The notes under the pieces: generated by a model
Database searches by the model: none
The model's input: the letters and a program-made list of their open reading frames with translations, nothing else
Told to the model about the DNA's origin: nothing
Assembly: GCA_963971425.1 (NCBI GenBank)
Contig: OZ020514.1
Span: 22,293,406-22,357,405, forward strand
Source of the DNA: Bryoerythrophyllum caledonicum
Lineage: Eukaryota; Streptophyta; Bryopsida; Pottiales; Pottiaceae
Length of the DNA: 64,000 nucleotides
Direction of reading: 5' to 3'
Program-made: the position numbers and the translations under genes
Shown: positions 1,760-36,119 of the stretch, piece by piece
Layout: the number at the start of each line of letters is the position of its first letter
How positions within the stretch are numbered: position 1 is the first letter of the stretch

Positions 1760-1787
1760 AACACCATATTCATTATATTGGGAGATT
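1760..1787 (+). repeat. Left terminal inverted repeat of element B
   Basis: Begins AACACCATATTCATT and pairs with the right end at 36092-36119 over 28 bp with three mismatches. It is preceded by the target duplication TAGA. The first 15 bp are identical to both termini of element A. Confidence 0.88.
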
Positions 1788-2072
1788 TCTAAGGTTTTAG
1801 AAGGTACACGCTCTTGAGTAATTCAATCATGTTACCACAGTGATGAAGCAAAACATGACTAGAATGGAAGTACAACACCATTTTTGTAAGATAATATGAA
1901 GATGTATAGACAAACAGCACCCAAATTGGAGAATCAAATGAAAGAATATCTTTAATTGCAGATTTAATTCATAATATGATAGAAGTAATCCATATACAAA
2001 ACAAGCATCATCCTTTCCATGCAAGAAAAGGCTTCTCTACGATCCAAAACATATACATTAGTTCTTAGTCAA

Positions 2073-4650
2073 TGCACATTCAGGTGTAGCCAAGCTTAAT
2101 GTGCACTTGTACCACACAACAGTACCACTCAGATCTTAAATCTAATTGTTCTTCTCCACGTCATCAAAATTTATTTCCTCAGCTCATCCCTGCCCCTCTG
2201 AAGTTCATCTTTGCGGCTGTAACCAATATATGGCATTTGACTAGCACATATATCTTCTTGCTATCGTTGGCGTTGCATCACTTCATTCCAAGTAACAAGA
2301 GGCTCACGAAGCGAGTGGCGACGACAACAATGACACTTGGAGTTGAGGTTTAAACCATGCTTTGGGGAAGCACTTTGAGGCTCTATAGTCGGGTGAAGCA
2401 CCTAGCAAAAGAGAACACAAAAATCAGCTTGAACCAAGCTAAATATGCACCCACACATGTCAAAAAACACAAACACCACAACGTGGAATCCATTCAAAGA
2501 ATTATGTGCAATTTAGGTGTTGGTGAAACATGCAAAATCAAAACACTGTTGGTTAAAAGGAGAAGATACTATACATATTGAACAATGACATAAAATAGGA
2601 CTAACCTCAGTAGTAGAACGCGTATTCCCACTTAGAGATTGGAGCTTGTTCTCAATATTTTCAACCGTTGCAACAGGCCGACACGTAGTAGGAATTGAAG
2701 GCATCTTCTCTGATGGCACTGTCGTAGGTGGTTGAATTACACCAGCAAGTGTTTGAAGCGCGTGATCCTATGACGTAGGGACAAACGAAGTTAAAATGCA
2801 ACATGTGCATATTTAGCTCTATTCGAGCTGAATGTGCACATTGCCAAAAAAAGACCTACGACAAATGCAGAGAAGGAGAGGGGGGAAATACCATGCTACA
2901 AGGGGGAAGAGACGATGATTCCTCACGATCGCAAACTAGCACTTGGTCACCTTTTCCACAAAACCTATCAACACTGGGGGACCTCAAAATACAACGAGGT
3001 TGAAGAATAGAACGGGAGGCAACCTTTCGAATGCAAATTTTTGGTGGACGGTTGTTTACTTCATCTTCTTCAAGTGGAGCCATCGTAGAGTCCATCAAAT
3101 AATGAGCAATTTGGGGTGAGTACAAATCATTTTGTTTACGGGGAATTAGATATCCACAATCTTCAGACTTCAAAATGGAATCCATGGAGGCAACACAACG
3201 AGTACTTGAGAAAATGGTGAGCTGCTTTTTTTCAAACATGGAAGCAATGAGAGAACAAAAACTTACAAAACCAACAATAACAAACAAAATATTACAAATA
3301 AATATCAAAGAATTGACAAGTGCCACTTAGATTACAAGATATGTACAATATAACACATCAACACAATTTTGTTTGTTTCCACAGGACTACTAATTTGTGA
3401 GCCCATGATATATCATAATTGTATGCGTTAATTCCATGTATTCTAAGCTATATGGATCCGAGAAAATTGTCGGACGACCAAAGGGATTCTCTCGCCAAAA
3501 AGATTACAGCCCTAACTCGGCACTACCGTGGAGCTCTTGGAGCCACGGAAGCAAGACATTGAGGAGGAACGTATCGTTCCACCCATCCCCTTTGTAGGAC
3601 CAAGTATCCGCCAGAAGCACATTTTCCGGATCATTAAGGACGTGCTTGTACAGACTGCATCTATGATGATAGTATTCTCCTTTGTAAAGGATCCATTCTT
3701 TTTTGTAATAAAATCTCTTAACAACGTCTCCAGAAATACCTCCTTATCCGAGTTCTTAACCTTCAGATATTGAGGTACATTCTGGATCACGATAGTAACG
3801 ACTCTTTCACAATGCTCTTGCCCAAATATAATTTTTGGTGAAGCTCATTTAGGGAAGAGGTAATTGACGATGCTACTAGTGGTGTTCAATTTCATCAAAC
3901 TCCAGACCGATATCAATGCAAACTTTGAAACAACGTCTAAAAATGCCTTGCAGCCTGGACGAAGATACACTAGCTTTGGGCCAACCTTGGCTGGAACTTT
4001 TACCAAGTATGGCAGAGAACATGCATTGAAGGCTTACGTAGAAGACCTCAAGTGGAATTCCTCACATACACACAATATACTGTTCAAGTCAAACACAATG
4101 ATTAACCATGGTTTGACTACTCTAGGGGTTGAACAAGGAACATGGACTATGGCGCTATGAACGCCCTCCAGTGGCTTGACCACTTGGAATTCAGATGGAA
4201 AAGAGTGGAGGTACATGTAACTAAACATTAAACAATAATTAACAATAGAGCACACAATATTATATAAAGAAGAAAGCACTGCACAGACAACAAAATCTTT
4301 GCCATGAAGTGGTGAAAACTAAAGTTATACCTCTGAATTGATGGCCAAAGTTGCATCAATGCGCCTTGCACCAGTTACGGGAGGATGCTCAGAAGGACCA
4401 ACATCATCTTTAATGGAATCCCATTCCAGGCTTAGGACATCTGAAAGTCAGCAAATTTGATTATGGGTAATGAACAAACATGTCCAAAAAATGCAACCAC
4501 ATTTGATACTAAATAGGATCCACATTCGGCTCGAGTCGAGTTGATTGTGCAAGTATATGACTACTGAACAACAGGATGCACACTGGGAGAAGACAACAAA
4601 ATACACAAAAAGTAATGCATATTCAGCTCAAGTCGAGTTGAATATGCATT
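2073..4650. repeat. Dispersed family-B palindromes (4 copies) in gene 2 of element B
   Basis: Four imperfect palindromes with arm GCACATTCAG and core CTCGASTCGAG lie at 2073-2105, 2804-2840, 4521-4550 and 4614-4650. The last is nearly perfect. They fall between the recognisable coding segments of gene 2, so probably in introns or the 3' flank. The same site recurs in an array upstream of gene 1 of B (32007-32473). They may be binding sites for an element-encoded protein; this is inference. Confidence 0.85.
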
Positions 4651-5095
4651 ACCCGTAACAATGACTTTAGGAGAAAGAAAGAACATCTATATAAAACAGA
4701 GACAAATATACTACTACATATGTGCAGTAGATTAACGTCAACTCAAGTGAAGTCTCAAAAAAGTAATATTGAAAAGACCAACACATAAACAACATTTAAA
4801 GGGATGGAAGTGATGTAGGAGAATAGAAACAGAAACAACATCAAATTTACTGCGCCAAGGTTAATACGGACAATAAACATCCATGCTCATTTACAAACAA
4901 AAGTTATTGTACAAAAGTATTCGAGGAAACAAAATTCACAAGACAAGAAATCTCGATATCCTAGTCCTCATCGAGAATCCCACCTAAAGAGTGTTCTAGA
5001 GATGCTCGAGCGTTGGTCGGTGTGGTGACTTCATTTGCAACTTCAGTCTCTTCCACCACGATCACTTGATTGGGTCTACACGGAGCGGCAGAACG
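2605..5095 (-). pseudogene. Gene 2 of element B (3' part; FCP1-like HAD phosphatase domain), truncated
   Basis: Several exon-like segments are visible on the minus strand. The segment 5095-4960 carries a SUMO-interaction-like motif VIVVEETE. The segment about 4440-4330 (DVLSLEWDSIKDD...) ends at a GT donor. The segment about 4216-3440 holds the HAD domain. Segments 3260-2860 and about 2790-2605 form a C-terminal tail, the latter ending TRSTTE before gttagt. The HAD and neighbouring parts are clearly paralogous to gene 2 of element A (20010-27039), which is on the other strand because A is inverted within B. The 5' half is missing: an LTR (5096-6745) interrupts the first exon seen and nothing recognisable follows. 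Stops and frameshifts make it a pseudogene. Exon limits are approximate and the tail homology is weak. Confidence 0.75.
3440..4115 (-). pseudogene. FCP1/NLI-interacting-factor-like HAD domain of gene 2, copy B
   Basis: The order of motifs is that of plant FCP1-like HAD phosphatases: motif I IVFDLNSIL (candidate nucleophile Asp at about 4090), then GPKLVYLRPG, then SVWSLMK (motif II region), then FGQEHCERV, then NTIIID followed by the motif IV region. A frameshift near 3655 is followed by YKHVLNDPENVLLAD, then WNDTFLLNVLLPWL, and the family's typical ending NPFGRP. Known family members dephosphorylate serine, as in the RNA polymerase II C-terminal domain. Many plant relatives have DLNG in motif I as here, and their activity is less clear. 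Paralogue at 25103-25771. Confidence 0.82.
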
Positions 5096-6745
5096 TGAAG
5101 AGCCTAAATCCTAAAAAAAGATTTTCCCAAAAAATTAAGTATAAATAGGGTTGAAGATATATTAGGAATTAAATAACTAATGAATAAGTCTACACACCGA
5201 TCAGCACAAAGAAAGTGCCTATTTATATCCAAGATATAGGAAATAATGGGAAAAGGGTTGAACTCGCACCCTTTGGAAAGGGTGTGCCTTTTCATAAATA
5301 GATATGAATAGATGTGAGGATTTAATGGAATTAATCTTAGAGGTTAATAATAGAAAAAATCATTTTTCCAAGAGGTGTGCCACTTGGATTAGAGTAGAAT
5401 GAATAGCTTGATTTTTTAGCATTCTTGGCCATTACCATAGCAATTCCTTGGAGGAAGATTGGAGTGAGTCCTAGCTTTATGTGAAAAAGCTAGTTGATGA
5501 CTCTAATTGTTGTAGGAGTATTTAATTTCATTAAAATATATAATTATTATTGAATTTGCATATAAAAAGTCTTGTGTGTGACTTGAATAATATGTATAGT
5601 TGTAATAATATTAGTTCTTCATAGAATAAACTTGACATTGTGTTTTGTAGATGCAATTGTATGCATGAGGTATTAATTGTGAATAAATTCCTATGCATAA
5701 ATGAAATATTTATTTAGATCTTCATTGTAGAAATTAAGACATCATCCAAATTGTTCAGGTGGCATGAAATTGTATGAGTTAATGAATTCAATTTAATGTA
5801 TTGCACATGAGTGAAATGTGCATATTTAATATGAAATCTTTTAGAGATTATGTTAGAGAAAGACCCTAACGATGTCAAAGTACATTGAGGATGTTAGAGT
5901 ACTAATTCTAAATGTGAGTAAAGCATTTAGGAATTAATTTGGAGTGAGTAACTTAATGCAATAATGTCACGAATGCATAAGTCGTTGATGTAAGACTTAA
6001 GTTTAAGTATGGAAACTTAAGTATTAAGACATAAGACATGAGTCTTATGCATGTATAAATAAGAAAACTTAAGTCTACAATAGGTGGAAATTTAAGTATA
6101 AATGATAGAACTTAAGTCTTAGTTATAGAACTTAAGTCATATAAGTGTGAGAGTGAAGATACTCTTTTTGCATTTAAGTGTTAAGGACTAATAGATAGGT
6201 TAGACTTAAGTCAGGTTCAGAGTGGAATTATTTAGAGGCTTAACCTAACTTGTGTGTTGATTGGAGTCTAACACTTGTGATGAGTACGTGACTACGTGAA
6301 CCGTTGAACGTACGTGAGAAGTGGAGCCAATTGCATGAGGTAAATTCGTGAATTTTAATGGATTTAATTAGGAATCAACAATGAGTGCAATGGATGGATA
6401 GTATCCAAGAGCCAAAGATGGCAAAGACTAGGAAACTAACTAACACGTACTTTCATAGTTAATTAAAGAGCAAGGTTCTTTAGCGGAGCAAGGCTCTACC
6501 TAGGCACTTAAATCTTTTGGACTAATACCTTAAAAATGGAATGCTAAGAGTGAGGCATTTTAAGGCTTAATTCCCTAAAAACAAGTGCATAAACTTACGT
6601 AATTCAATAGAAGATAGCTTTTGACCTACAATTAAAGACAAACTACTTAATATTAGACGCTAGACCATCCCGAGAAGAATTTAGAATCAGAGGGTGACTT
6701 GTATGAGTCTTGGGTGTTTTGGAGAGTGTGGATTTTTTGGGCTAT
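5096..6745 (+). repeat. 5' LTR of a retroelement (same family as the solo LTR at 10265-11890)
   Basis: About 1650 bp beginning TGAAGAGCC. It matches, in reverse complement, 11890 down to 10265 along its whole length, including the shared stretches near the start (gagcctaaatcc), the repeated aacttaagtc blocks, and the segment around 6660-6745. A short gag-like reading frame follows 30 bp later, so this is the 5' LTR of a truncated element. It sits inside a coding exon of gene 2 of element B; the flanking bases gaacg have no visible partner because the rest of the insertion is lost. Confidence 0.85.
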
Positions 6746-7555: not shown

Positions 7556-7610
7556 CTTTTTTTAAATATAGTTTGTAATATGAAAACTACATTAAAATGG
7601 TTAGGCTAAT

Positions 7611-7635
7611 AACACCATATTCATTCAAATGAGAC
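7611..7635 (+). repeat. Left terminal inverted repeat of element A
   Basis: The first 15 bp are identical to the right end; a looser match continues to TGAGACA. The target duplication TAAT lies at 7607-7610. Confidence 0.88.
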
Positions 7636-7639
7636 ATTT

Positions 7640-8520: not shown

Positions 8521-8521
8521 A

Positions 8522-11500
8522 TTATGTCCACTTGTGATTTAGGAATTTTAACATAGAAGAGCTTGTTTTTCCACGCAACCTAGGCTTCCAAGTTGTTAAA
8601 ATACAATTTGTATACACCCACATTGATTCAGATTCAGTTTCTTCAACCCAATTATTCCCATGACTAGAATCCCACCCTTGGTACGTTTCCAAGTCCACAT
8701 GGCGTTGGGATGCATGTTTGAAGTATTGCACTTTAATCTCATGAGGATGTTCACGATCCGGATGTGGATTAGTCAATGCCAAGGCAATCCAAAATGGTCA
8801 CAAATCCCCATTAGCAGAACGCACTGCAAGTACATAGCCCTCGTACACATCTCTACCAACCCGAAATGATGGAGGGGACAATGATGTCGTTGTCCAATGA
8901 ATGGTGGATCTTCTGCATACTCCTCAACGACCCATCAATCTCATATTCTTCCACCATGGATGGAGCATATCTAGATAGTGGCCATAATCCCTCTCGTGGG
9001 AGAGGCGATTCTTCCAAAGGCACCTCGAGGGCAGCCTTTACAACTCTCCAATAGTACATAATATGCTTGTTCTTCCTCCTATATTCACCGGAGAGATCCT
9101 CATTTGCCACAAATTCCCAAAGACATAGAAACCTAGAGTTACCCTTCAGGACCTCATCATAATTCTCATGTCGTCGCGGAATGAGAGGAAGCGGCTGTCC
9201 ACGAGGCAAAATTGGCCTATCATCTGCCGTCACTTTCCACAACTAAATTCCTCCACCCTCCTTGGGCAACCAATCCCTATCTATACACAAAAATTTGTAC
9301 TGCATCTTTGGCAATCCATCTGAGTCCTTATAGAACTTGAATTGTTGGCCCTTCGTGTCACCCGTAAGGGCCTCTTTGCCAATGCACAAATATCCTTCTA
9401 AAGAGCCCTTGAAATCGGGCACCTCTTCAATGAGGTGTGGAATAACTGGCATTTTCTCAGCATCCATGAATGATATCATCAAGAGTGGAATCATTGGATA
9501 GCTATTTGACTTGAGTTTGGAACTCCATCTTCCAAACATTGCATCAATATCCTCGTGTGTATGACCAACAAGTAAGAAGTTGACATACACTTTACAAAAA
9601 ATACCGATATGAACGAGAAAGGGAAAAAAAACAAACACAAATCTATTTTTATAATTCACAAAAAGAATACACTGGTGGACACTTTTAAGTCTCGAAGTAA
9701 CTTCGCAATGGATCCAACAGTGTGGTTTGAGTCGATGGGGAAGATGTCAAGACTATAATGGGCATAACGAACATTTCCATGTCCATACGCAATCATTCCA
9801 ATTACAGCCACAAGCAATTTCATGAAGGACTCCGTTGCTTTATTCTTGGGAAAAAAATGAGGAGATGCAGTTTTGTTGTGATCCATTCTATCATGGATGA
9901 TGCACATCAACCACGCTTCTTAGTAGAGTATTGTTCAAATTCGGAGCTCCGAATTCGACTAAGACCGGACAAAGATATTGGTTTGAGGCCAAATCTTGAA
10001 TTCACCTCATTGACTTTGGGCAACACTGCACTCCATTGAAAAGAGGCAAAAAGGTGTTTGGAGACCACCTTCTCCCTATTGCCAAGTGTAGTAGTCTTAT
10101 TAGGACTGTGATCAGCAGCATCATCAAGTATATTATGCAAAGTAGCAATTGCCTGTGGGGTATGAGTCCAAGGCTTTTTTGTACCAAAATTGCCGTGTGC
10201 CCCCGCCCGCATCCCATCTTTTGCCTCTCGTTTGTACCAGTAGAATGTGGCTCGGCTAACCCCCTGTAAACTGGAAAATTCACATTCGCAAAACACCCAA
10301 GACTCACACCAGTCTCTCCATGATTCTAAATTCTTCTTGGGATGGTCGAGCGTCAACCGTTAAGTAGTTTGTCTTTTATTGTAGGTCAATAGTTATCTTT
10401 CTATTGAATTACTTAAGTTTATGCACTCGTTTTTAGGGAATTAAGCCTTTAAACATATCACACTTAACATTTCACCCTTAAGGTATTAATCCCAAGGATT
10501 TAAGTGCGTAGGTAGAGCCTTGCTCCTCTAAAGAGCCTTGTTGTTGATTTAACTATGAATATGCACGTTAGTTATTTTCCTATACTTTTGCCATCTTCGG
10601 CTCTTGGATACTATCCATTGCACTCATGGTTGATTCCTTAATTAATTCCACTTATAATTCACAAACTTACCTCATGCAATTCGCTCCACTTCTCATGTAC
10701 GTCCACAGTTCATGTACTCACGTACTCGTCACAAGTGTTAGACGCAGACAACACGCAAATTAGATTATGCCTCTAAATAATTCTACTCTAAGTCTTGGCT
10801 TAAGTCTAACCTATCTATTAGTCCTTAACATCTAGAATGCAAAAAAAGTATCTTCACTCTTACACTTGCATGACTTAAGTTCTATCACTTAGACCTAAGT
10901 TCTCTTATTTACACATGCATGAGACTCTCGTCTTATGTCTAAATGCTTTAAGTTTCCACACTTAAACTTAAGTCTTACATCAATTACTTATGCATTCCTC
11001 ACATTAATGCATTAAATTTCTTACTCCAAATTAATTTCTAAATGCCTTACATACACTTAGAATTATTACATTAATATTCACAATGTCACTTTGACATAGT
11101 TAGGATCTTTCCTTAACTTTATCTCTTGAAGTTTTAATATTAAGTATTCACATTTCACTCATATGCAATACATTAAATTAAATTCATTAATACACACAAT
11201 TTCATGTCACATAATTAATTAGGATAATATCCTAATTTCTACAATGACGATCTAAATAATTAATGCATTTATGCATAGGAATTTATTCACAATTAATACC
11301 TCATGCATACAATTGCATTTACAAAACACAATATCAAATTTATTCAATGAAGTTCAAATATTATTGTAATTATACATATGACTCAAGTCACACACAAGAC
11401 TCTACACATGCAAATTCAATAATAATTATATATATTAACAATTTCACACATAACATAATACTCTTACAACATAAGAGATTTCTTCAATTACTAGCTTTTT

Positions 11501-12690
11501 CACCTAAGCTAGGGTTCACTCCAATCTTCCTCCAAGGAATGTCTATGGTAATGGCCAAGAATGCTAAAAATTCAAGCTATTCATTCTACTAAAATCCAAG
11601 AGGCACACCTCTTGGAAAAACGGTTTTTTCTATAAATAACCGTTAAAATTAATTCCACTTGACCTTCACATCCATTCATATCTACTCATGAAAAGGCACA
11701 CCCTTCCCAAAGGGTGGGAGTTCAACCCTTTTCCCATTATCTCTTATCTCTTGGATATGAATAGGCACTTTTTGGTTAATTAACTATTTAGTGTAAACTT
11801 TATCATTAATTATTTAATTCTCCATATATCTACAACCCTTTTTACACTTAATTTTTTGAAAAAAGGTATTTTGAGGATTTAGGCTCTACACCCCAATAAT
11901 AGTACACCATGCATTTTGGCACACATCAATTCCATCAAACGTCACCACATGGTTGCCATTGGAATCCATGTGGATATGCCTATGTACATCAAGCAAAATA
12001 TGTTTCTGAAAGAAAACACCTCTAATGTCACGGTAAACTTGGGAGCGAAATACAGAAATTGAACACCTTGTAAATCGTTGCGTACAATTTATTGAACAAC
12101 AAACGGTGTTGGCTATAGAGTTGATCAATTGTGTAGTAAGTACTTCCTTTTTTGGTGGGGAAGGACCCTCTACTGTGTGACAAGTGGTTTTGTACTGTCG
12201 AACGCCTACTCTAAGTTCGCAACGAAATACTTTCAGAGCTGCATTGTAAATTCTAGTTTTATCTTGGTTATACAAACTCACGTTACAAAGAAAGACCTGT
12301 CGAGTTGGCCACGCTCAAAGGAATAATACCGAATAAAATCCATTTCTACAAAAGTATGAAGCAGGATTTATACTTGGAGTAATAATCGGAATGTAACTAT
12401 CCAATTCAATGGAATTTCAATCTCGTTCAAGCATTTTGCAATTAGAATAGCAACATGATCATCTCCATGTGGCCAACCACCAGTTTCAGAAACAAATCCA
12501 GAATCAACACTGTGGCAAAGTCCAATTGCAATATCAGCCCCAAATGTGTTTCAAAGGATAACGCGCTTTGAGAACCACGATGCGCGAGGAATTCCCTCAC
12601 ATGCAGCAACACCTGTTGGCAAGGTAGGTGGATCTCGGACTACACCATCATATGAGCGTACTTCGATCTTCAAGATATCACAATGAGAAG
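8522..12690 (-). pseudogene. Gene 1 of element A: DUF7869-like protein, candidate transposase
   Basis: Minus-strand gene whose segments align in order with gene 1 of element B (32609-35496). The N-terminal part at about 12600 has EGIPRASW (B: EVLPRHSW). Then come INSIANTV and the block ending GIDVCQNAWCTIIGV at 11891. After a solo LTR it resumes SRATFYWYKREAKDG at 10259, followed by IHDRMDHNKTA, GHGNVRYAHYSLDI, and VNFLLVGHTHEDIDAMFG near 9563. It ends WDSSHGNNW near 8640. I recognise the GHTHxDID block and overall plan as those of DUF7869-like proteins. About 55 residues present in B between LLRDLK and YKNR, including the segment with QIDN, are missing here. Frameshifts and stops are present. 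The start at about 12690 is by analogy with B. Confidence 0.78.
10265..11890 (-). repeat. Solo LTR (1626 bp) inserted in gene 1 of element A
   Basis: Read on the minus strand it begins TGTAGAGCC and ends GTTTACA, the TG...CA form of an LTR. It is homologous to the LTR at 5096-6745. It is flanked by CCCCA (11891-11895) and CCCCC (10260-10264), a 5-bp target duplication with one change. It splits gene 1 between ...CTIIG and SRATFY, where the paralogue in element B is continuous. No internal retroelement sequence is present, which fits LTR-LTR recombination. An open frame crossing its inner edge (10356 leftward) mixes LTR and gene 1 sequence and is not a real start. Confidence 0.88.
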
Positions 12691-12772
12691 GACAGAGGAT
12701 TAGTCATTCAGTGAAACGACATGTTCGTAAAGAACAGCTCCAATGAAAGGGAAAAGAAACAGAGAAGATACG

Positions 12773-13590
12773 TTTATCCTCGACACGAAGATAATTGTAG
12801 ATATAGAAGATATTAACACTCAATTAGGGGAACATTTAATAAAACCATAGTTAGGTATAAAAATTTACTGATGATTTGAACCCGAAGAAAACTCACCAAA
12901 TATACACATCACTTCGAACGAAGACCAACATTTGGAAAATTATTCATCAATTCTGGATGTGTAAAAATATCTCCAAAAATATAAAATAGCAAGGAACCAA
13001 TTTGTTTCTATCTTAAAAAAACTAATTGCATGAAGCCTCTATGAGTTATCCTTGATCCGAGGAGAGATCTGCAAATGATATCTGAAAGATATGAGTGCAT
13101 GAATGACATACGCATTCCACAACCAAACATAAATCTGATATCTGACAGCCTACATTCAACATGCATCTCAGATGACATCAAACTCGTAGTCGGTTATCCT
13201 TGATTTGTGAATAGCCATCATAAATTAGGTTTTTGAAATATTGAATACCATACTTCTCATATCCTCGACTCGAGGATAACACCCTCGTAGGACTACCACC
13301 TATATTGGGCAAAGACTGAATTAACATCAAACCCTAATTCAGCTTATGAACTCATGCAATACATTCATTATAATTTTATCGAACTCTAACAAATTGACAT
13401 CTTTTATCCTCGACTCGAGGATAATTACTACTTCATTGTCAACCATATTCGTACAAGACTTTGCACTTTGATTTCGAATGCACTATAATTCCTTAGAATT
13501 ATCTTCGAGTCGAGGATAAGTATTTTCCTTATTTTCTTTAAAATGATTCATCTTATCAGATTATTTGAGTTTAGGTTATCCTCGACCCGT
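12773..13590. repeat. Array of family-A palindromes upstream of gene 1 (element A)
   Basis: Copies of a site with arm TTATC, core CTCGASTCGAG and the mirrored arm lie at 12773-12796, 13045-13064, 13193-13212, 13258-13280, 13404-13424 (perfect), 13498-13520 and 13575-13590. They sit just upstream of the inferred start of gene 1, in a position matching the family-B array upstream of gene 1 of element B. They may act as promoter operators or transposase binding sites; this is inference. Confidence 0.85.
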
Positions 13591-13599
13591 GCTGCAGTG

Positions 13600-18930: not shown

Positions 18931-18935
18931 TGACA

Positions 18936-19667: not shown

Positions 19668-19963
19668 TTTATCCTCGAGCCGAGGATAAACTTCAATACG
19701 TAGTTCACTAGTCAAGTAAACAAAGTGAGATTCAATGATTTTTACAAGAATGCTAAATTGAAGTATCATTGAACAAGAGTTGAAGAAAAGTATTCTCGAG
19801 CCGAGAATAAATTGAACAGGAATTCGTTAACTGTAAGCACTTAGGTCACGTAATCTAGCTCTTTTTTAAGCGGATAATTTTTTTTCTTGTAAAAAATATA
19901 TTTGCCTACAAATCAAAGAATGGTGACTAATTGAATGAAGAGTTATTCTCGACCTGTGGATAA
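19668..19963. repeat. Family-A palindromes upstream of gene 2 (element A)
   Basis: Three copies at 19668-19690 (arm TTATC, centre CTCGAGCCGAG), 19791-19809 and 19943-19963. They lie in the putative 5' untranslated intron just before the gene 2 start codon. Further copies are intronic at 21413-21431 and 22891-22913, and one overlaps coding sequence at 24346-24365. Confidence 0.82.
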
Positions 19964-20009
19964 GCTTGATAACGTGCCACTAATTTGTGTTCACATTTTG
20001 ATATTTCAG

Positions 20010-21405
20010 ATGGCGACAACCGAAATGGATTGGGATGACAACTACGACTATTCATCCTCTGAGTATTTCATTGAGCGGTTCGAGAATCCAATGGCCCTAT
20101 CCTCCTTCATAGAAGAAGTCGTCAGAAACTATGGAACTCTTTGGGCATTCAAGAATGTCGTTAAGAGCTGGTCACTTTCAAAGTTCGGGAAGTGTATTCC
20201 AATCACGCTCAAAGTAAACGACGAAGTTCCGTACGTATACTTCAACCGAAATGTAAGAGTGATATTCATTGAGCAGCAACAACGGGAGTTCATCGTACTT
20301 GGCGTTCAGGCTGTCAATGAGGAAGGAGATGATCTTCCACACTGCCACTCTATTGTCGTCAAAGTGGATACTTCTCACGGGCATTTTGATTTCCAAGAAT
20401 TGCTTGAATGCGTGGTAAGAAACGGTCAGGGATCGCTCAAGGAGGCGTTTGAAAAGTATCTGCCCTGGAATAACAACCACGCGATGAAAGTCAATAGGCG
20501 GTTGGTTTGAGTTCACCAGTTATTTTCAGCCTTTGAAGTTTGACAAGCTCCAGTGGAAGGCACGCAACAACGTCGTCCTCGAGCAAGTATTGCGGATGCG
20601 GCAAATCCATTAGGTTCATCCATTCCAAGAACATCAAGCTGCCCACCTCCAAGGCGGCCAACAACTACGACCGCAACGCCTAGCGAACCATCGTCAAAGA
20701 AGAGGAAATCAACTGCCGAAAGAAGCTTGGCATCTACAGTAACGCGGGCTATCACTCCAAGTAAGGCACGGAGAGATCCCTAAGTTGACTTCCAGAAGAT
20801 CACCGAATCTTAACGCCTCTTTTGGGAGGAACGCAAAGGATGCTTTCCATTTGATTCTTCAACATACAGACTTGTGAAGATTGATCAATGTCTTGTCACA
20901 AAAGCGCAATAGGTGATTTGTGGAATGGAAGAGGGCATTGTTCTAAGCACGATGGACTTTCTTGTCTAGCTTGGCAAAATCGATCAGGGCCAAAAAATCT
21001 ATGTATGTCCAGTCGATGACGATGGTGAGCCGAAAAAGACCAAGCTCAACTGCTAAGACAAAATCAAGGGTGGCAAGTTCATGCTCATCAACGGAGAGCA
21101 TAGCGTGGAGGCATCCAAGTGACTTCAAGACAATGACGACTGCGGGGACAGTCAGAAAAACGGCCTTTGGAATTGGGGTGCTTATGTAGTTTGGTCATCA
21201 AATCCTCTGATGTTGTAGAGGATTCAAAATTTAACAATGACACAAACTACTTGGACCATGCACAGCCAACATGGGATAACCAAATTTTGAGTTGCAGGAG
21301 AATCTAGCTAAACTTGGGACGTCCAAGTTATCAACAAGGAGAGGCCGCATCTCGAAATAATGGTGCGGTGTTTGACTAGGAAAAGTACTTGGAAAGCTTT
21401 CTCTT
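20010..21405 (+). pseudogene. Gene 2 (A), N-terminal exon, unrecognised domain
   Basis: Opens with MATTEMDWDDNYDYSSSEYF and keeps one reading frame to about 21200 through roughly eight stop codons, the first at 20508, with no frameshift until near 21220. Recognisable stretches are SLSKFGKCIPITLKV, then a Pro/Ser/Thr-rich linker with SSKKRKST (possible nuclear localisation signal) near 20690, then GQKIYVCPVDDDGEP and GGKFMLINGEHSVEASK. The final part, in another frame, ends near EKYLESFLF before a GT donor at 21407-21412. No family assignment. Confidence 0.62.
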
Positions 21406-21542
21406 TGTAGTGTATCCTTGGGTCAAGGATAATCTTTGCACCACACTATGTTTTGTATCATTTCATACCCGCAATAATCTCTTCAGCCTTTTGATAGTAA
21501 ATAGTTATATATTTTGACTAATCTATGTTGTTTGTGTTGCAG

Positions 21543-22530
21543 TTATTTTCTAAACTTATTGTTACCCACTTTCAAAATATAGATCCAACCAAGGAAAGAA
21601 AACAAGTCAACAAGTCGTTTGACTTCACCAACGAGATCAAGGTGATCACCCTTTTTGGTGACATTTTCAAGTTGTGGGAAGACTTTCTCGAACGACATAC
21701 AAAAGGCGAGAACATCAACCCTGACACCTTGTGCCTTTACAAGGAGGCAAGAGGGTTCAAAGCTTCAACTATTCATCAGGAATTCTTCAAGAGATTGGGG
21801 CATCTCTCCGATACGGACTTGAGAGATCTGTTCCGCTACCTAGTGGACAATAAACAAGCGTATGGGTGCCTCAAAGTCACGGTCCGTAAAACGAACGTGA
21901 TTCATGAGTCCTGCTATCACTACAAGGAGTGGGCAGATCGCCGTAAGAGAAAGCGCATCGTCTTGCAGGAATTGGTTGCAATTGATCCGTCCTTGCATTT
22001 TTTGATGCCAGACGGGTCCACAAACGACTCGGTGTAGAATGCGTGGAAGCAAGATCATTGCGTATCGTTTGTCACGAACACTATGCTCCTAGTCTTTTGG
22101 ACAAGGAGTTCTTCTCCATGAGGTCGACAAATGTAGGGAAACTCAAGAGCGCGTCTCACTTAGTGGAGAAGTGTGCAAACGTTCTTCCTTTTTTTCGGAA
22201 GTTCTTGTATGTGAAGAGGCACATCGATCCTGTTGATGTGCCTTCGAAGCTTCGTAACTTCGACGGGGAAAAAATGGAGTTCTGTTTGTATTTTGAGCCA
22301 CCTGCTGAGGACAAAGAGTGGTCCCTTGGACTCCTTGACCTTTGACAGGTCCCTGGGTGGGCCTCAAAAGACGACTCTTCCGAAGAGCCCTACTTTTCAG
22401 CGTTTTCGAAAGCCCTGAAGACACAACGAAGCATTTCCAATCTCAACTCTCCTGCGTCTAGGTGTGGATCACCTCTACTAAATAGCGAGCCAAGGAAGCT
22501 GAGAAGTATGCTGAAAGAAGGATGTTGAAG
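21543..22530 (+). pseudogene. Gene 2 (A), second coding exon
   Basis: Begins after the acceptor ttgtgttgcag (phase 0). The frame holds FDFTNEIKVITLFGDIFKLW and HLSDTDLRDLFRYLVDNKQ, then a basic stretch DRRKRKRIVL, with a stop at 22035. It continues in another frame from about 22043 (FFSMRSTNVGKLKSASHLV, later DKEWSLGLLDL), then after a stop WASKDDSSEEPYFSAFSKAL. Composition is that of a normal globular protein. I recognise no domain. The 3' limit is uncertain. Confidence 0.6.
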
Positions 22531-22636
22531 TACTAAAGTCTTTCCTCAGCATACATTCCCTCCGCATATAAGCGGCTTAATTTAGGGACATCAAGGTCAA
22601 AGTGTTGTGAGTTTTACCTTCTATTTCTCATTATAG

Positions 22637-22863
22637 ACAACCTTCCTAATGTTGCGGCTCTACTTGAGAAAGTGAAGCTGAACTACTGTGTTGTGGATAC
22701 TCCATATTACACGGAAAAAAACAAGTATTTGGAGGCTTGCTTCGCAGTCCATGGCTACAAACTTAGGATGGAGTTCTACCTTGACCTCTTGACAGAATTT
22801 AGCAAGCCCATGAGCAGAGTGTTCGGAATATATTGTGGCTCAAAGTTAGTGCTCGCTAGTAAG
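22637..22863 (+). pseudogene. Gene 2 (A), third coding exon
   Basis: Acceptor ttatag before 22637 and consensus donor GTAAGA at 22864. The open frame reads NLPNVAALLEKVKLNYCVVD to GIYCGSKLVLASK without a stop. A family-A palindrome lies in the following intron (22891-22913). Phase matches the next exon. The domain is not recognised. Confidence 0.65.
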
Positions 22864-23093
22864 GTAAGAGGTCACCCTTCAATTTCTGAGTTTATTCTCG
22901 ACTCGAGGATAAACTTAGATCCATCGTTTGTTTTGTAGAAATCCGTGTCTACTATAAATCCGTGCCATTTGAAGTTCATTAAGCCCAATATTTTGCATTG
23001 TAGATTTTTTTCTCATGTCGTGTTTATTCATCGGACCATTCAACCCTTCAGCCAAACTTGACTACTAAACTGGTTTTGTTATATCTATTGCAG

Positions 23094-24642
23094 CTGTCTG
23101 GAATGTCATTTTACGGTCTGGTGGATAAAAGCTATCGGAAGTTATGCAAGTTCAACTCGAAGAAGATTCATATGTACGACATCAACGATTTTATCCACAA
23201 GGATTGTGCGTATGTTGGGCCTCTTCCAGCTCAGTCCGGAGCGCTGAAATCCGCAGCAGCAAGAGTATCAGCTGACCAAAGGCCTTCGCGAGCAGCAGTA
23301 GAGACAACCTCAACCTCACAAGCTGCGCCTTCTTGTAATCGTGCTCAGGTCAGGGCATCTGTGGACATTGATTCGACTATCCAGGGACGTAGTGATTTCA
23401 GTGGTACTTGAATCCGTATGGATTCACTTCGAGTCCCTCAAGAGTTTGCGGAGGACACCAACCATCCGTGCTTGCAACCGTCCCTTCCTCCTTCACACCC
23501 GCCGGATAATGATCAGGACAACGACTTTGAATTTAATCCATATGGGAGTAATGAAGGTGTGGACATCTCGACACTTGGACTCCATGGGGCGGACCATCTT
23601 CTACATTTGAATCACCTCAGTCAGCAACCCCTGTTGCTCGAGATGACGAAGAAGGGCTTTCAAATATGGTAAGTCTGTTGCGTTCTCTTGGTTTGCTAGA
23701 AGAATCTATAGCAATTTTGGAGACCCAAAATCTTGAGACACTGGTGGCTTCTAGAGCTTCAACGCTGGTTGACTCCACTATCTTGCTCTCTGATTCAAGT
23801 GACGATGAAGGCAAGAGACCTAGCGTTCCAAACATATGCATCAATGTTCCTGAAGAAGCGCCTCTACTTGCAGTCGTTGTGAAGTATGAACCAGGTCCAG
23901 ATTATTTCCAGCACATGGCGTACAAACGCGCTTTGGAGGAGAAGATGAATCAGGATATTCTGGACGAGTTGGAGGCGTTCAAGCCCAAGCAGGCTGAGAT
24001 GGAGGCTGCTCTCGAGAAGCAGAAGTTGGAGTTTACTCTAGACAGGGAGCGAATTGCGGCCACTACTAGGGCTGAGCTACACCTCCAGATGAAGGTAGAC
24101 CTGGCACAGATGATGTCCCCAGCCTCTCTCTCTACAGCTGCTGCTTCATCAGGTCCTTCACAATGTAAATTGCTTAGGTCCGCAATGCATCCTCGCATCG
24201 AAGATAACTCTCGTTGTGGTCTTTCGACTCCCTGCCAGCCCTTTGCAGTGAATGAACCATCCACTCCTGATCATCAGCATTTATCCCCGGGTGGCTCTCA
24301 TGTTGTTCCTAAGGGACCATCATTGTCCACAGGAACACTAGTGGATTATCCTCGACCCGAGGAGAGAACGCTTCTTTGTCCTCACAAAAGCCCAGCGAAG
24401 TACAGTGACAACATTGTCCCTCCCGAGAATCAGATGCATCGTGATCATGGTGCCTCCTCTGTTCCTAGTTCCTCACCACGTCAATTCCTTGTGCCTCTTC
24501 ACCAATCCAAGGAGTGCAATGTTGAGGCCTGCGTTGTCAACCTTCCTGTGGTTGCGGAGGATTTCTATCTAGTGGAGGAGGATCGAGTGGATTACGAGCC
24601 GTCACCGGCAAATCTCGTGCAGGGCGCGTCTTAACCTGACAA
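23094..24642 (+). pseudogene. Gene 2 (A), fourth coding exon with SUMO-interaction-like motif and coiled coil
   Basis: Starts after atctattgcag with LSGMSFYGLVDKSY and continues through a Ser/Ala-rich linker. A stop at 23409 and a frame change near 23668 lead into a 322-codon open frame. At about 23777-23812 is STILLSDSSDDEG, a hydrophobic-then-acidic pattern typical of SUMO-interacting motifs. It is followed by a charged helical stretch (about 23920-24110; KRALEEKMNQDILDELEAF and onward) that would form a coiled coil, then a Pro/Ser-rich region to the stop at 24632. A family-A palindrome (24346-24365) is part of the coding sequence here. A plausible donor is aag|gttggc at 24642. Confidence 0.65.
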
Positions 24643-24878: not shown

Positions 24879-25771
24879 ATGAGAATGGATGATATTATTC
24901 ATCGACCTCTTGCATTGAAGCCTCAGATTGGGAATGGTTTACAGAAATCGCTATGTGGGGGAGATTTGATGCAATCTGTGACACTTCCTTGGCATATTGC
25001 TCGATGTGCATTTGATCATGTAATTTCCGTTGACTTTCTTGTTTGTTCGTCTTGTCCTTGGGTTGTTTGCCGAGGAGTTTGTCCTTTGTCCTCAGCTGAC
25101 GGCCACATAGGTGGCTTAATATCATGCTGGATATCAATGGCATCATGTGCAAGATAGAACATGTCCCCAAGTTGTCGAGAGGCTCCGGGAGCCGAGCAAC
25201 GTATCCTTGCACCGTTCCTGCGTACATAGGTCCCAAAGCTGTATATACTTGCCCTGGAGTTTGTGCGTTTCTAGCGGAAATCAGAAACATTACAAACTCT
25301 ATTGTCATCTGGAGCTCGATGAAGAAGTCCAATGTAGTTGAAATGGCGTAGTATCTTTTTTTGGACATGGCTTCTCTAGCTTTCGTTCTTGGTCAGGAGA
25401 ACTGTGAGAGAATTGAAACCTTGCCGAATGAATTTTTGATGGATCAGAATAATTTCAACAAGATGATCTTTTTGAAAATCCTATCATCATCTTTCGTTAG
25501 TCACAAAGTTGAGTCGATGGTCCTAGATTCGGACAACACCCTTCTCATCGACGACAGCTCGGGTAAGAGCGTCTCTAATCATACCGGAAATGCCAAGTTT
25601 CTTCATCCGTGGAGACATGCGGCTTGTGATGACCAATTCCTTATTCAAGAACTTGTACTTTGGCTGCGACGTTTGGTTTCTGAATGCCCTGTTGGGTATT
25701 TACATGATTATGTTAATAACAATCGCATAGGGGTTCCACTGTTGGCGCATAATAGTCCTTTCATGAAGTAA
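24879..25771 (+). pseudogene. Gene 2 (A), fifth exon: FCP1-like HAD phosphatase domain
   Basis: After an acceptor (ttttctcag) the exon starts MRMDDIIHRPLALKPQ, changes frame before 25100, and from 25103 to 25771 reads as an FCP1/NLI-interacting-factor-like HAD domain with one stop (25349). Motif I is WLNIMLDINGIM (candidate nucleophile Asp at 25130). Then come YTCPGVCAFLAE, IWSSMKKSN (motif II region), GQENCERIET, the conserved Lys of NKMIFLKIL, and NTLLIDDSSGKS with the motif IV Asp pair at about 25550. It ends ELVLWLRRL...VGYLHDY, as in plant FCP1-like proteins. The known activity of the family is dephosphorylation of phosphoserine; activity of DxNG members is uncertain. Clearly paralogous to 3440-4115 (minus). 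Confidence 0.82.
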
Positions 25772-27439: not shown

Positions 27440-27464
27440 GTCTCACTTTAATGAATATGGTGTT
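27440..27464 (-). repeat. Right terminal inverted repeat of element A
   Basis: On the minus strand reads AACACCATATTCATT and continues to TGAGACA, matching 7611-7635. The target duplication TAAT follows at 27465-27468. Confidence 0.88.
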
Positions 27465-27479
27465 TAATGCGTTGGAAAG

Positions 27480-31452: not shown

Positions 31453-31456
<4 letters not shown>

Positions 31457-32006
31457 GCACCTTTCTAATACTCGGCAAGCCTTCATGAATCTATACTGTC
31501 TTGAAGTACGCCTTGACATTTGAAAGACCTATTGAATTCGAAGTCAAATTTCTTTGCAAGAAGTGGATACATTATTCTAGTTCGACTTAGTTGTGTTCGG
31601 AATAGCTAGAGATGCAGAGGTGTGTGATCGTGATAGGTGGCTGCGGCCGTGACAACCAGTAGGGTTTTTCTTTCTTCTTTCTTCAAGACGTTTTGGTGCA
31701 CGCAATCAAACCATTTCTAAGTCACTTTCTTTCTAAACTTTATGGTGATTTACTCGGCATTTGGTTCGCACATTTGATAGTGTCATTTTCAATGTAATGA
31801 AAAAGTTGTAGGAAAGAGGTGATACTTCGGCATCAACACAATTGCCTCTTTAGTACAAGTTTTGGGATTGGTTTTTTTTTGTACATATATGTTATTGCAA
31901 CTGTTAAAATGCGTAGTTTTTGTTGGTATGAGTGCTTCTAATTTTGATTCAGTACTCTTGATTGTGCGCAATATTGTTGCCGTAAATTCCATACATAGAA
32001 TATGTT

Positions 32007-32473
32007 GTGCACATCCAGCTTGACTCGAGCTAAATGTGCATAGAACATACTATGGTCATTTTCACAAAATCTATGCAGTGCACATTCAGCTCGACTCAAG
32101 CTGAATGTGCATACTTTATACTACAGACGTTCAAGAATCATGTGTAATGCACATTCAGCTCAACTCGAGCTGAATGTACACTAGTTTTTCTGCAGACGTT
32201 CATGTTGTACTTTATAAATGTGCTCATTAGTTATTGTGCACATTCAGCTCGACTCAAGCTAAATATGCATAGTTTGTGTTCTACACATTGAGCATGAGTC
32301 AAGCTGAATGTGCATTGTACGTGGTTTTGATTGTCAGGCCTAATTTATGCTGTGCACATTGAGCTCAACTCATGCTCATTGTGAATTCTATTTGTGCTTC
32401 ACGTTAAGCGCGAGGCAAACGGAATGGCGTAGTTTGTGTTCTACACATTCAACTCGAGTCGAGTTGAATGTGC
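32007..32473. repeat. Array of seven family-B palindromes upstream of gene 1 (element B)
   Basis: Copies at 32007-32040, 32078-32111, 32147-32180, 32236-32269, 32284-32312, 32352-32385 and 32442-32473. Each has arm GCACATTCAG (with variants), core CTCGASTCGAG and the mirrored arm. Spacing is 50-90 bp. The array ends 135 bp before the gene 1 start codon and lies in what is probably its promoter or 5' untranslated region. Confidence 0.9.
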
Positions 32474-32608
32474 TTTGTTTTCACCTAAGCGTGGAGTTGA
32501 ACAATGATGCTATGTTTTTGTTCATTCTGAATGATGTGGGATGAACCTCGGAGTACTATTGTACTACGTCAACTAATTACACTTTTGCCTTAGTTTTGTA
32601 GTGCCGAG

Positions 32609-35496
32609 ATGGACACTTCAACCGGTGCCTCAATCGACGATGATTTTAATTTGTCAAGTGATAGCTCGTCTTTCCACAATCCAACAGATGCCAATTTGAT
32701 GGAATTTGAAGTTCTTCCAAGGCATTCTTGGGTCGATAAGAGAGTCGAAATGAAAAACCTGTCCGGTCTTACAATTGCCACTGGAATACTTCATAACCTT
32801 CACACCATGGCTATTCCTAGGATTGATGCTCCATTAGGTGATACTCACGTTGCCATTCAGGTCTCGAGGACATTAGTTGAAGATGAAGCACCGGACGAAT
32901 GGCGTTATTGTGATAAGATTTGGCCTGTTAGACAAGTTTTCTATAATAGTGTCAGTCTCTTGCATCACCAGTAGCGTGATACTTACAATTCTGTACTGGC
33001 AATGAGAACCCGGTTGCTTGGAGAGAGGACTCGCTCTTAAGAAAGTTCATCTAGGATCTTTCTAACCATGGTTTCAACAAAATCATCATTTCTCATCTGT
33101 GACAAATCTATCAACTCTGTTGCTGGAAACCGCTATTGCTTCTGGAATTGTGTTCAACGCTTCCTACGATTGAAGATTAAAGTATTGCGGATGATGATGT
33201 ATTTTGGTACCTCTGTTCAATTTGAAAGGCATATGAAGCTAGATGTTCATGGACAGTTTCATGTGGACAATAACGGTAGATATGTAGTAACCATTAAGGG
33301 CGTTGACGTGTGCGCAGCTGCCTAGCATCACATCATGGGCATCAGTGAAACCTCGTCCTCGAATATGCCAAGGATGCCGCGGCTCGTGTAGTCGCGCAAC
33401 CCCATGGTAATACTCGGAAACGGAAACCTAGAAATCACATAGTGGTTGCTACCGCAGCATTACGTGTCATCCTTAATAGAAATGCAAACCACATGCCCCA
33501 CAAGTCCCGCACCTTGTCTTCTGGTGAGACATCCGTGGCCAAAGTTCTTCCCCCAAATTTCAAGTGGAAAGATCAAATTCTTGCAATTGATGGCCATTTA
33601 GTTAATTGTGGGCTTGCCCAAATTTCCACTTCAAGGCTAAGTAAAATTAGGCGGGTCCATTTTTTCGATTACAATGCAAAACGACCTTGGGATAACTTTG
33701 CACGTTGTTCAACGTGTGATAAGTACCATTTCCATAAGAGGTTGCAGTAGCCTAGAACAGTAGCTAAGCTACTGTGGGAGCAAAGGTTGAATCTCCATTT
33801 CGATTCAGCATGGGCTCATTGAGAGTTGTATTATTCCAACCGTTACCGCTCTCAAAAGTTGCCGAATGAATGTGTTACAATAATGCACAACAAGATGGAT
33901 CACTCGAAGATTGCATCGCATGTCCTCTCTCACAAGACGAAACATTTGGATGGTCTAATGAAGTTGCCCATCTCTGTTACTGGAAAGCTTGCACATGGTC
34001 ATGGCGATGTTCGTTATGCTCATTATGGCTTAGACATTTACCCACATGATATCAACTATACAGTGGGCTCCTTTGCTAGATTGTTGCAAGATTTAGAACA
34101 ACCTCCAAAGACATCATCCCGACAATTATTTTAGGGTTCGGAGAGAACTTTATTGTTTCAAGGTGTTTTACAAGGAGCTTCAGATACTTGTGTCCCTTTC
34201 CTCCGCACCGCGCCTGAGTCTCTAGCTACAGCAAAACCTCTGCCGCTTATATTGCATGTGCAAATCGACAATGCGGTGAGTGAAAACAAAAATAGATACG
34301 TGTTTTGCTTTTGGTCTCTTCATGTTGCAAAGGGTATCTTCCGAGAGGTTTATGTTAATTTCATGCTTGTTGGCCACACACATGATGACATTGATGCATT
34401 ATTTGGTTGATGGAGTATGGCTTTGAAGAAGGAGAGTTCCCCTACGATCCCTGAGCTTATGAGATCATTTAAGGAGAACGAAAGTGTTCCAATAAGCCCT
34501 CACTTGATTGAAAAAGTACGGGATTTCAAATCCTTTATTAGTGATAGTATTGCAGGTGGAGACAAAGCATTGCAAGGCCACACAAAGTCTCACCACTTTA
34601 GACTCTTTGTTGACTCCAATGGATGTCCCATGATGAAATATAAGATTTTTTGTAATCAAGATGATTGGCTTCCAAGAGAAGGAGGTGGAATAAAATTGTG
34701 GAAGGAGGATTCAAATCGAAGGTCTTTGGAGCCTCGTGGAGAACCACCTTCATTGCAGCCACATGCAATGCACAATCGTGGTGAAGTGATTTAAGGTCTT
34801 TCTGGATTCATATCATATTGGGAAAATAAAGCACGTGAGGATCATACAGGTGAATATCAATGTAAATATAAGCCTTTGAGCTACTACTAGTGGGCAGTTA
34901 GAGAGTCACTTAGTCAACCAATGGACTTGCCCACCTCTCTACAGGATGGTTTTTGGCCTTTAGGTCGTATTGGTCAAACTATCATGGATCAATTCACTAG
35001 TGTGGGCACTATTTGTGAGGAGCATGATGACGATGACCACTTTGTTGGGCAGAGTTGAGATAGGCCAACCCCTTCTTTTCGGATTAATTGAGACGCTTAC
35101 TCAGACTATTTTGTTGCATTAAGACCCTCTGATGGAGATAAACGCCCTATTGGGATTGCACAAGCGCTCTCGGAACCTAATTCGTAGCTAGAAAGGCCTA
35201 ATTCTATCAAAATACAGGAATTCTGCTCCACTTCGCACGATGCAAATTTCCAAAGATGCTATGGAGGATGGTCCTCTTCCAACGGCCAACAATGGACAAT
35301 TGATGACAAGCAACTTCCGCAATGGGAGGACACTGGATCTTTGTTGAGTACATGGAAGTCTAGAAGTAGGAGTGAATTTCCTGTTGTGAAGATACATAGA
35401 AATCAAGTTCAAATCATTCAAGATAGTTTGATTTGGGATGCTGAGCCGTCTTCTTCACAATGGCTTTTTAGTACAAAGATGTTGCTCTTACACTAG
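32609..35496 (+). pseudogene. Gene 1 of element B: DUF7869-like protein, candidate transposase
   Basis: About 960 codons, apparently in one exon. The ATG at 32609 follows an acceptor-like ttttgtag. The frame is continuous to about 33355, then shifts once and continues to the TAG at 35494, with about a dozen in-frame stops. Order of conserved blocks: FEVLPRHSWVDKRV; KGVDVCAAA then HHIMGISE; LSKIRRVHFFDY; IMHNKMDHSKIA (about 33880); GHGDVRYAHYGLDIYP; LHVQIDNAVSENKNRYVF (Asp at 34267); VNFMLVGHTHDDIDALFG (34351-34407); DDWLPREGGGIKLW; a divergent C-terminus. The MDHSK, QIDN and HTHDDID acidic positions resemble an RNase H-fold triad, suggesting a DDE-type transposase. That role is inference; the family itself I know only as an uncharacterised domain. 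Confidence 0.8.
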
Positions 35497-35657
35497 TATC
35501 CAAGAGTGAGCATGAGATCAAAATATGTTGGCATAATTTAAGCTCAAATTGAGCTGAAAGTGTTCACCCATTTCTTGTGGAGATTAATACATTTATGAGT
35601 TTTGATATTTTTGTTATTTGCTATGCTAAATGGTTGATTGCATAGGAATTGTTGGGG

Positions 35658-35817
35658 CAGATTCAGCTTGACTTAAGCTGAATGTGTATGGCTTTCTTCT
35701 TGGAGAGAAGTGCAATTCTCTACTTGACAATTTGCCCTTTGTTATGTGTTGTTCTGAATGTTTTATTGCATAGGAATTTTTGGGGCACATTTAGCTCGAC
35801 TCGAGCTGATAGTGTGC
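35658..35817. repeat. Family-B palindromes downstream of gene 1 (element B)
   Basis: Two clear copies at 35658-35689 and 35785-35817, and weaker ones near 35535 and 35905, between the gene 1 stop and the right terminus of B. The sites therefore occur on both sides of gene 1. Confidence 0.8.
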
Positions 35818-36091
35818 TTGGATTCGAGAAATGTTTTTTTGTGCCTTGGCATTTGATCTCTGGTTTTTGAATGATATTTGGAGTTGTAAGTGTTGCTTTC
35901 TTTCAGCTCGGGTGAAGCTAAAATTGTACTTCAATTTCCTTCTAGCCTAATTTTAAATTGAAAAAATTCCACACCTTCCATTTTATTATATACCAAACTC
36001 GAAGATAGTATTCAAAGGTTACTATGCAAATCACCAAACATTTGCATGTTTAAGTCAACTCAAGCTTCCAGTATTATTTTGGGAGGCCTTT

Positions 36092-36119
36092 AATCTCTCA
36101 ATATAACGAACATGGTGTT
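36092..36119 (-). repeat. Right terminal inverted repeat of element B
   Basis: On the minus strand it begins AACACCATGTTCGTT; it matches the left end (1760-1787) at 25 of 28 positions and is followed by the duplicated TAGA (36120-36123). Confidence 0.88.

Follow-up and report, generated by a model that had tools for sequence, protein, structure and literature searches.

A giant two-gene DNA transposon family in the moss Bryoerythrophyllum caledonicum with a probable DUF7869 transposase, a large FCP1-like partner protein and subfamily-specific palindromes

What kind of mobile element carries a DUF7869 gene and a gene with an FCP1-like HAD domain, divergently arranged between shared termini, and what might the two proteins do in it? 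The question is raised by a 64,000-nucleotide stretch of the moss Bryoerythrophyllum caledonicum (assembly GCA_963971425.1, contig OZ020514.1, positions 22,293,406 to 22,357,405; hereafter the window), which holds two copies of such an element, A and B. A preliminary description, made from the sequence alone, proposed a distinct transposon superfamily with an FCP1-like phosphatase as partner of the DUF7869 protein. We consider it likely that A and B represent two subfamilies of one giant cut-and-paste family, in which gene 1 (DUF7869) is the probable transposase, gene 2 is accessory, and a set of palindromes provides binding sites. Its new features are the second protein, which brings into a mobile element an FCP1-like domain with Asn for the second catalytic Asp, and the palindrome system with its subfamily-specific arms; a new superfamily is not proven.

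Element A spans 1760-36119 with TAGA on both flanks, and element B, nested inside it, spans 7611-27464 with TAAT on both flanks. The 15-mer terminus of the family, AACACCATATTCATT, occurs exactly at 1760 (+), 7611 (+) and 27450 (-) and with two mismatches at 36105 (-); these four occurrences at up to two mismatches compare with a shuffle mean of 0.33. In A, the similarity between the ends extends beyond the 15-mer (ATATTGGGAGATT and ATATTGAGAGATT). In A, gene 2 lies close to the left end (minus strand) and the DUF7869 gene close to the right end (plus strand); B has the same layout, inverted. The two copies therefore bear out the preliminary description in its divergent gene pair, 15-bp termini and 4-bp duplications. 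The boundaries, with strand where a feature has one, are:

1756..1759, target-site duplication TAGA, left of A (flank comparison)
1760..1774, plus, left terminal inverted repeat of A (15-mer, after which ATATTGGGAGATT still resembles the right end)
7607..7610, target-site duplication TAAT, left of B (flank comparison)
7611..7625, plus, left terminal inverted repeat of B
27450..27464, minus, right terminal inverted repeat of B
27465..27468, target-site duplication TAAT, right of B (flank comparison and empty site)
36105..36119, minus, right terminal inverted repeat of A, differing from the 15-mer at two positions
36120..36123, target-site duplication TAGA, right of A (flank comparison)

The insertion point of B is supported by an empty site in E5, a paralogous element found elsewhere in the genome: the flanks of B, joined at one TAAT, align to E5 across the junction (84%, 643 columns), and E5 has a single CTCAT where the joined flanks read CTAAT. 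Both window copies are broken, with 12 stops in the DUF7869 gene of A and 3 in the aligned part of that of B; several of the stops in A, read by eye, are compatible with single C-to-T changes. The window also contains an inverted pair of 1.6-kb repeats, ~82% identical, at 5095-6721 (in A) and 10289-11891 (interrupting the DUF7869 gene of B).

The family has many further copies in the source genome. In the 437-Mb assembly (894 contigs), the exact 15-mer is present in 1,474 copies (735 + 739), against 0 + 1 for the reversed control. We analysed 100 of these end sites, namely 20 short pairs plus 60 others. The 20 inward pairs (40 sites), with start-to-start spacings of 148 or 222, are miniature inverted-repeat transposable elements (MITEs) of 163 or 237 bp; a perfect 4-bp duplication flanks 19 of the 20, and a duplication of 5-8 bp flanks none. 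Six intervals (E1-E5 and E9) were chosen from inward pairs 18-36 kb apart, omitting other pairings (e.g. 7.5, 11.9 and 75 kb). All six have DUF7869 near one end and the HAD part of gene 2 near the other, in divergent orientation, and five have perfect duplications (AGGG, CTGT, ATTT, GGGA and GTAG), the sixth being the imperfect ATAA/CTAA of E9. The DUF7869 gene is rearranged in E9 and split by ~15 kb in E4. Eight of the 48 other, isolated ends were examined: two enter DUF7869 and three enter gene 2, so that an element gene stands where expected at five of the eight; two belong to MITEs whose second end has diverged slightly and whose duplications are perfect, and one shows palindromes only.

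Inverted repeats are present at both ends of window A and B, E1-E5, E9 and 20/20 MITEs. These elements rule out the possibility that the two window ends belong to unrelated repeats. Two subfamilies can be told apart by how the ends continue: ATATTGGGAGATT in the A-type (window A, E2, E3, E5, E9) and AAAATGAGAC or near it in the B-type (window B, E1, E4). Across 26 duplications there is no strict consensus, and the second base leans to A/T (21/26). E2 (L013-L016) and E3 (22.8 kb long) are 99% identical except for a 10.9-kb insert in E2, sitting in gene 2, and we take this near-identity as a sign of recent movement. What is supported is a family of DNA transposons with terminal inverted repeats and 4-bp duplications, in which the gene pair is conserved and non-autonomous derivatives occur. 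The sequences point to a large, real and recently mobile family, of which A and B are nested, decayed members and at least one copy elsewhere has open genes. A paralogous empty site for B is seen in E5, and E3 combines an open DUF7869 frame with a gene 2 that can be read through 1,576 codons.

Gene 1, a DUF7869 protein of ~950 residues, is most likely the transposase of the family, a strong inference. Pfam matches to DUF7869 (PF25273) fall at 9246-9746 in B (E 1.6e-24) and at 34135-34407 in A (E 1.5e-23); E3 and E5 preserve an open frame, and that of E2 is interrupted by one stop. The window carries two decayed copies:

8525..12550, minus, DUF7869 gene of B (probable DDD transposase), decayed, split by the 1.6-kb repeat at ~10289-11891 (PF25273 E 1.6e-24; match to the gene of A)
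32594..35493, plus, DUF7869 gene of A (probable DDD transposase), a long, largely continuous frame broken by at least one frameshift and, over the aligned part, by 12 in-frame stops (PF25273 E 1.5e-23)

The protein is predicted to contain an RNase-H-like core, whose Asp triad (D428 or D431, D554, and D594 or D596, in the numbering of the homologue P0004) would be catalytic, and a C-terminal SH3/BAH-like domain. A PDB sequence search with gene 1 returned only one chance match (E 0.029), and no literature on DUF7869 turned up.

Gene 2 proves larger than the preliminary description supposed, having seen its last exons only and missed those upstream in B. In E3, it can be read as five putative exons (15562-16980, 17135-18493, 18697-19744, 20319-20428 and 20579-21373 in E3 coordinates), with GT/AG inner borders, consistent phase and 1,576 codons without an internal stop. 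Homology to the Ceratodon protein P0125 (1,397 aa) covers most of the product, with 33% identity in the upstream part and 43% in the HAD part. Of the 17 homologues in the search, sixteen come from Ceratodon and one, P0124, which has no HAD match, from Physcomitrium; Ceratodon homologues are annotated as a single protein and keep the HAD fusion. A precomputed NIF/FCP1 domain (PF03031) is given for 10 of the 17; the profile matches 15 of them at E <= 10 (best 2.3e-12), and E3 at 5.2e-19. Both the phasing of the exons and the fusions in Ceratodon speak against a separate HAD gene; more probably, a ~1,576-aa protein ends in the HAD part. There may also be a separate, shorter product, since exons a-c of E3 read on in frame reach a stop at 19767. 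The remnants in the window are:

3500..4460, minus, gene 2 of A, C-terminal FCP1/NIF-like HAD exons, decayed, motif I DLNSILC (PF03031 E 3.5e-5; 82% aa identity to E3; outer limits by eye)
4964..5092, minus, gene 2 of A, exon c remnant of 44 codons (tblastn; converted from WA 3405-3533)
19935..24631, plus, gene 2 of B, upstream exons, decayed; a ParB-like region, then a methyltransferase-like segment that looks degenerate (~20691-22866, WB 13281-15456, is backed by tblastn using gene 2 of E3)
25100..25768, plus, gene 2 of B, FCP1/NIF-like HAD exon, decayed; motif I DINGIMC, later motif IDDS

The open reading frames (ORFs) of B at 19935-20507 and 23555-24631 were assigned to gene 2 by position and by eye, and tblastn found no exons upstream of exon c in A. 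The PF03031 match in A covers 3848-4033; the HAD counterpart of B is without one and was aligned to the ORFs of A by BLASTP (46% over 41 aa, 9.8e-7; 33% over 64 aa, 2.9e-6).

The catalytic motif I of FCP1/NIF-like phosphatases is DxD. Motif I of the gene 2 HAD does not have this form: it reads DLNG in E3 and DING or DLNS in other copies (E1, window A and B, and the Ceratodon homologues having motif I), with Asn in place of the second Asp. E3 and Ceratodon retain the IDDSP motif. The replacement makes classical phosphatase chemistry doubtful. A partner that is an FCP1-like phosphatase gene is not supported, given this motif I and a domain that is probably the tail of a much longer protein. The upstream part contains, by eye, an INGQH(S/R)V motif resembling ParB proteins; towards its end, E(L/F)xMEFY...G.K resembles the last motif of beta-class DNA methyltransferases, with D(F/L)RxxP at the DPPY position. 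The ParB and methyltransferase assignments are made by motif, neither region giving a significant profile match. A profile built from five gene 2 sequences had 67 matches at E <= 0.01. No annotated ParB-methyltransferase was reached among them, as a precomputed Pfam domain is missing from all 67; most are unnamed, and two are labelled uncultured cyanobacteria, which may reflect contamination or mislabelling. PDB sequence searches with the HAD part or gene 2 gave no match, the AF2 model of a gene 2 homologue was unusable (mean pLDDT 34), and a literature search for transposons with FCP1 turned up nothing relevant.

Alongside the two genes, every one of the eight elements contains 7-24 copies of a palindrome with the core CTCGA(C/G)TCGAG. 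The arms differ between subfamilies: the A-type consensus is GTGCAnATTCAGCTCGACTCGAGCTGAATATGCA (77 sites pooled from five elements), the B-type is TTATCCTCGACTCGAGGATAA (26 sites from three elements), and a third type, CACTTTAGCTCGASTCGAGCTAAAGTG, occurs at end L053. At up to one mismatch, A-type sites are exclusive to A-type elements and B-type sites to B-type elements (8/8). The arrays in the window are:

4528..4650, two A-type palindromes (arms ~TGCACATTCAG, core CTCGASTCGAG) upstream of the gene 2 exons of A
13264..13520, three B-type palindromes (~TTATCCTCGACTCGAGGATAA) upstream of the DUF7869 gene of B
19674..19810, two B-type palindromes upstream of gene 2 of B
22897..24370, two further B-type palindromes, at 22897 and 24351
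32006..32492, A-type palindrome array directly upstream of the DUF7869 gene of A
35657..35815, palindromes downstream of the DUF7869 gene of A

In E3, the 22 sites lie upstream of both genes, in gene 2 introns and in the end regions, and none lies in coding sequence. Genome-wide, matches at up to one mismatch number 1,138 + 1,169 for the A-type and 943 + 1,009 for the B-type, with none for the controls; these totals are matches rather than sites, a near-palindrome being counted on both strands (E3 has 10 forward + 13 reverse matches at 15 sites). The palindrome is retained in all 22 MITEs examined (20 exact-ended and two others; at most three mismatches in 15), always 55 bp from the same end in those of 163 bp, and is absent from the 29.6 kb of the window outside the elements. 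This is the pattern that a cis-acting protein-binding site would show.

Both proteins are under selection. Ratios of nonsynonymous to synonymous substitution (dN/dS; Nei-Gojobori, pairs sharing 80 or more codons, dS 0.02-1.2) range from 0.235 to 0.73 for the transposase (13 pairs), from 0.227 to 0.44 for the gene 2 core (7 pairs) and from 0.23 to 0.92 for the HAD part (19 pairs). The lowest values are those of E3-E5 for the transposase (0.235) and the gene 2 core (0.227) and of E1-E4 for the HAD (0.23). High HAD values, found in pairs with E5 (0.47-0.60), which is apparently frameshifted there, and in the close pair L051-L056 (0.92), are expected because copies decay after insertion. The HAD part is under purifying selection of the same order as the transposase.

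How far does this gene partnership reach? A Pfam search of the source genome gave 3,605 first-look DUF7869 candidates; all of the 150 that were scored lie above the cut-off, many with open frames of 1,066-1,087 aa, and 14 control genomes gave none. Five other loci, chosen from the 150 reported, were examined over 3.5 kb each. The preliminary description had tied the FCP1-like partner to DUF7869 in general, and had named DUF7869 genes without its termini and never paired with gene 2 as evidence that would weigh against the proposal; the loci bear this out in part. At all five loci, the family ends (at up to three mismatches) and the palindrome core are absent, and three have chance-like matches to the ends at four mismatches. 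Three of the five share an alternative terminus, whose complement begins AACACGCAATTAAGC (AACAC) and beyond which the flanks diverge; no element ends were found within 3.5 kb at the other two. The three loci, L059, L060 and L061 (open frame 1,066-1,077 aa), represent another DUF7869 lineage, and their terminus reads AACACGCAATTAAGCAATTATGCACTTGGCC from outside. DUF7869 is thus the mark of a broad group, of which only the family described here is shown to pair it with gene 2; the general claim is not supported.

Two retroelements neighbour A and B in the window. A Ty3/gypsy-type element at 49361-56523 (+) encodes reverse transcriptase (RT; RVT_1, E 3.2e-21), RNase H and integrase, and carries a C5 cytosine DNA methylase ORF (52461-53450; PF00145, E 7.9e-15) between its RT and gag-like ORFs, the latter called by position and without a Pfam match. 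DNA methyltransferases have been reported in charophyte and dinoflagellate retrotransposons (PMC5890265). A second retroelement, at 60486-63256 (-), has integrase and RT domains.

In the model that we favour, the full element has 15-bp (plus longer imperfect) inverted ends, 4-bp duplications and two divergent, outward-pointing genes. Gene 2 would consist, in order, of a ParB-like INGQHS region, a decayed DNA methyltransferase-like segment, a linker and the C-terminal FCP1-like HAD with its second catalytic Asp changed to Asn. We take it to be an accessory protein that binds DNA and descends from the ParB-methyltransferases of giant elements of the Sola-1 type; the FCP1-like module would have been added later, possibly engaging the transcription machinery. 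The palindromes, upstream of both genes, in gene 2 introns and in MITEs, would be binding sites for gene 2 or the transposase, required in cis for mobility. A bolder version, which we put forward tentatively and think unlikely in full, is that a ParB/parS-like nucleoprotein module has been kept: gene 2 would recognise the palindromes of its subfamily, coat or join the ends of a 20-35-kb element and recruit host transcription machinery through the altered FCP1-like domain, with arms and protein co-evolving so that subfamilies do not cross-mobilise.

Other explanations apply to parts of this model. The HAD and upstream exons could be host gene fragments caught by chance, as Pack-type passengers without a role in transposition; the FCP1-like domain could be a host-derived module, and accessory genes are described as frequent in giant transposons (PMC12477816). 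Their same placement in both subfamilies and at further ends, the purifying selection in several pairs and the same fusion kept by the Ceratodon homologues make chance capture very improbable. The palindromes, for their part, might be no more than features for host transcription factors or RNA hairpins, or else a tiny independent repeat that has inserted into the elements. Their confinement to non-coding parts in E3 and the ability of single strands to form hairpins would suit such an origin, which appears unlikely given their retention in 22/22 MITEs, subfamily-specific arms around one common core, and absence from the window outside the elements.

The remaining question is one of affiliation. 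DUF7869 may define a separate superfamily unrelated to Sola, with gene 2 as lineage-specific cargo: nowhere in the analysis does a sequence link between DUF7869 and Sola appear, DUF7869 is very abundant in the genome, and its elements may form a wide group with AACAC termini, a second lineage having its own ends that begin AACAC (3/5 loci). We regard this as doubtful, since the published giant Sola1 has the same overall plan (~21.5 kb, with a large ParB-methyltransferase gene opposite the transposase; PMC12477816), and Sola elements have 4-bp duplications, are reported in Physcomitrella and can exceed 15 kb (PMC10741241, PMC9033089). A giant Sola-1-like element, judged by published descriptions, seems likelier, because the size, the 4-bp duplication, the moss occurrence and the large opposite-strand gene fit what is published of giant Sola-1 elements (PMC12477816, PMC10741241, PMC9033089); the distinct superfamily of the preliminary description is not supported, for the same reasons. 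Searches of plasmids and phages by tblastn gave no match beyond one of 25% at E 9, and there is no sign of viral origin in the viral contigs searched, because pattern matches to the gene 1 and gene 2 profiles were unconfirmed by tblastn. KDZ and EnSpm were set aside on duplication length, 8 and 3 bp respectively against the 4 bp seen here.

Little is known of giant DNA transposons in algae and mosses, or of how a transposase deals with ends that lie 20-35 kb from each other. Several components make the family a concrete system: a probable transposase, one large accessory protein on which selection acts, a palindromic site of defined sequence, and MITEs of 163 bp in which the ends and the site are kept. 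It also suggests a function for DUF7869, a large Pfam family that is unassigned. Among known proteins, gene 2 resembles FCP1/NIF-like HAD phosphatases (PF03031) in its profile match (E 5.2e-19) and IDDSP motif and differs from them in having DLNG, not DxD, as motif I. In ParB-parS partition systems, a ParB protein acts with many copies of a short palindrome; here, too, ParB-like sequence in one protein and many fixed-core palindromes occur on the same element. The likeness is one of sequence, in a eukaryotic transposon, with partition, CTP use and binding not in evidence.

The closest published counterpart is Sola1-1_Ec32 of the brown alga Ectocarpus, a giant Sola-1 of ~21.5 kb (E3, 22.8 kb) with a transposase and, on the opposite strand, one very large ParB-like/DNA-methyltransferase gene, whose ParB-like domain parallels the ParB-like motif of gene 2 (PMC12477816). 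Its authors suggest that ParB-like proteins bind their own transposon (PMC12477816). The 1,104-aa Ectocarpus protein has a recognised methyltransferase domain (PMC12477816), whereas the corresponding region of gene 2 is unrecognised by Pfam, shows no DPPY-like motif by eye and is joined by the FCP1-like HAD; palindrome arrays do not figure in the published passages describing the Ectocarpus element (PMC12477816). The Sola superfamily as described has 4-bp duplications, short variable terminal inverted repeats and a DDD-type transposase, and is reported in Physcomitrella, with some elements >15 kb (PMC10741241, PMC3627910, PMC9033089). The moss family shares these traits, the DDD-type transposase being here a predicted one, and differs in that Sola2 duplications are AT-rich (AWWT; PMC10741241, PMC3627910), whereas the 26 collected here follow no strict consensus.

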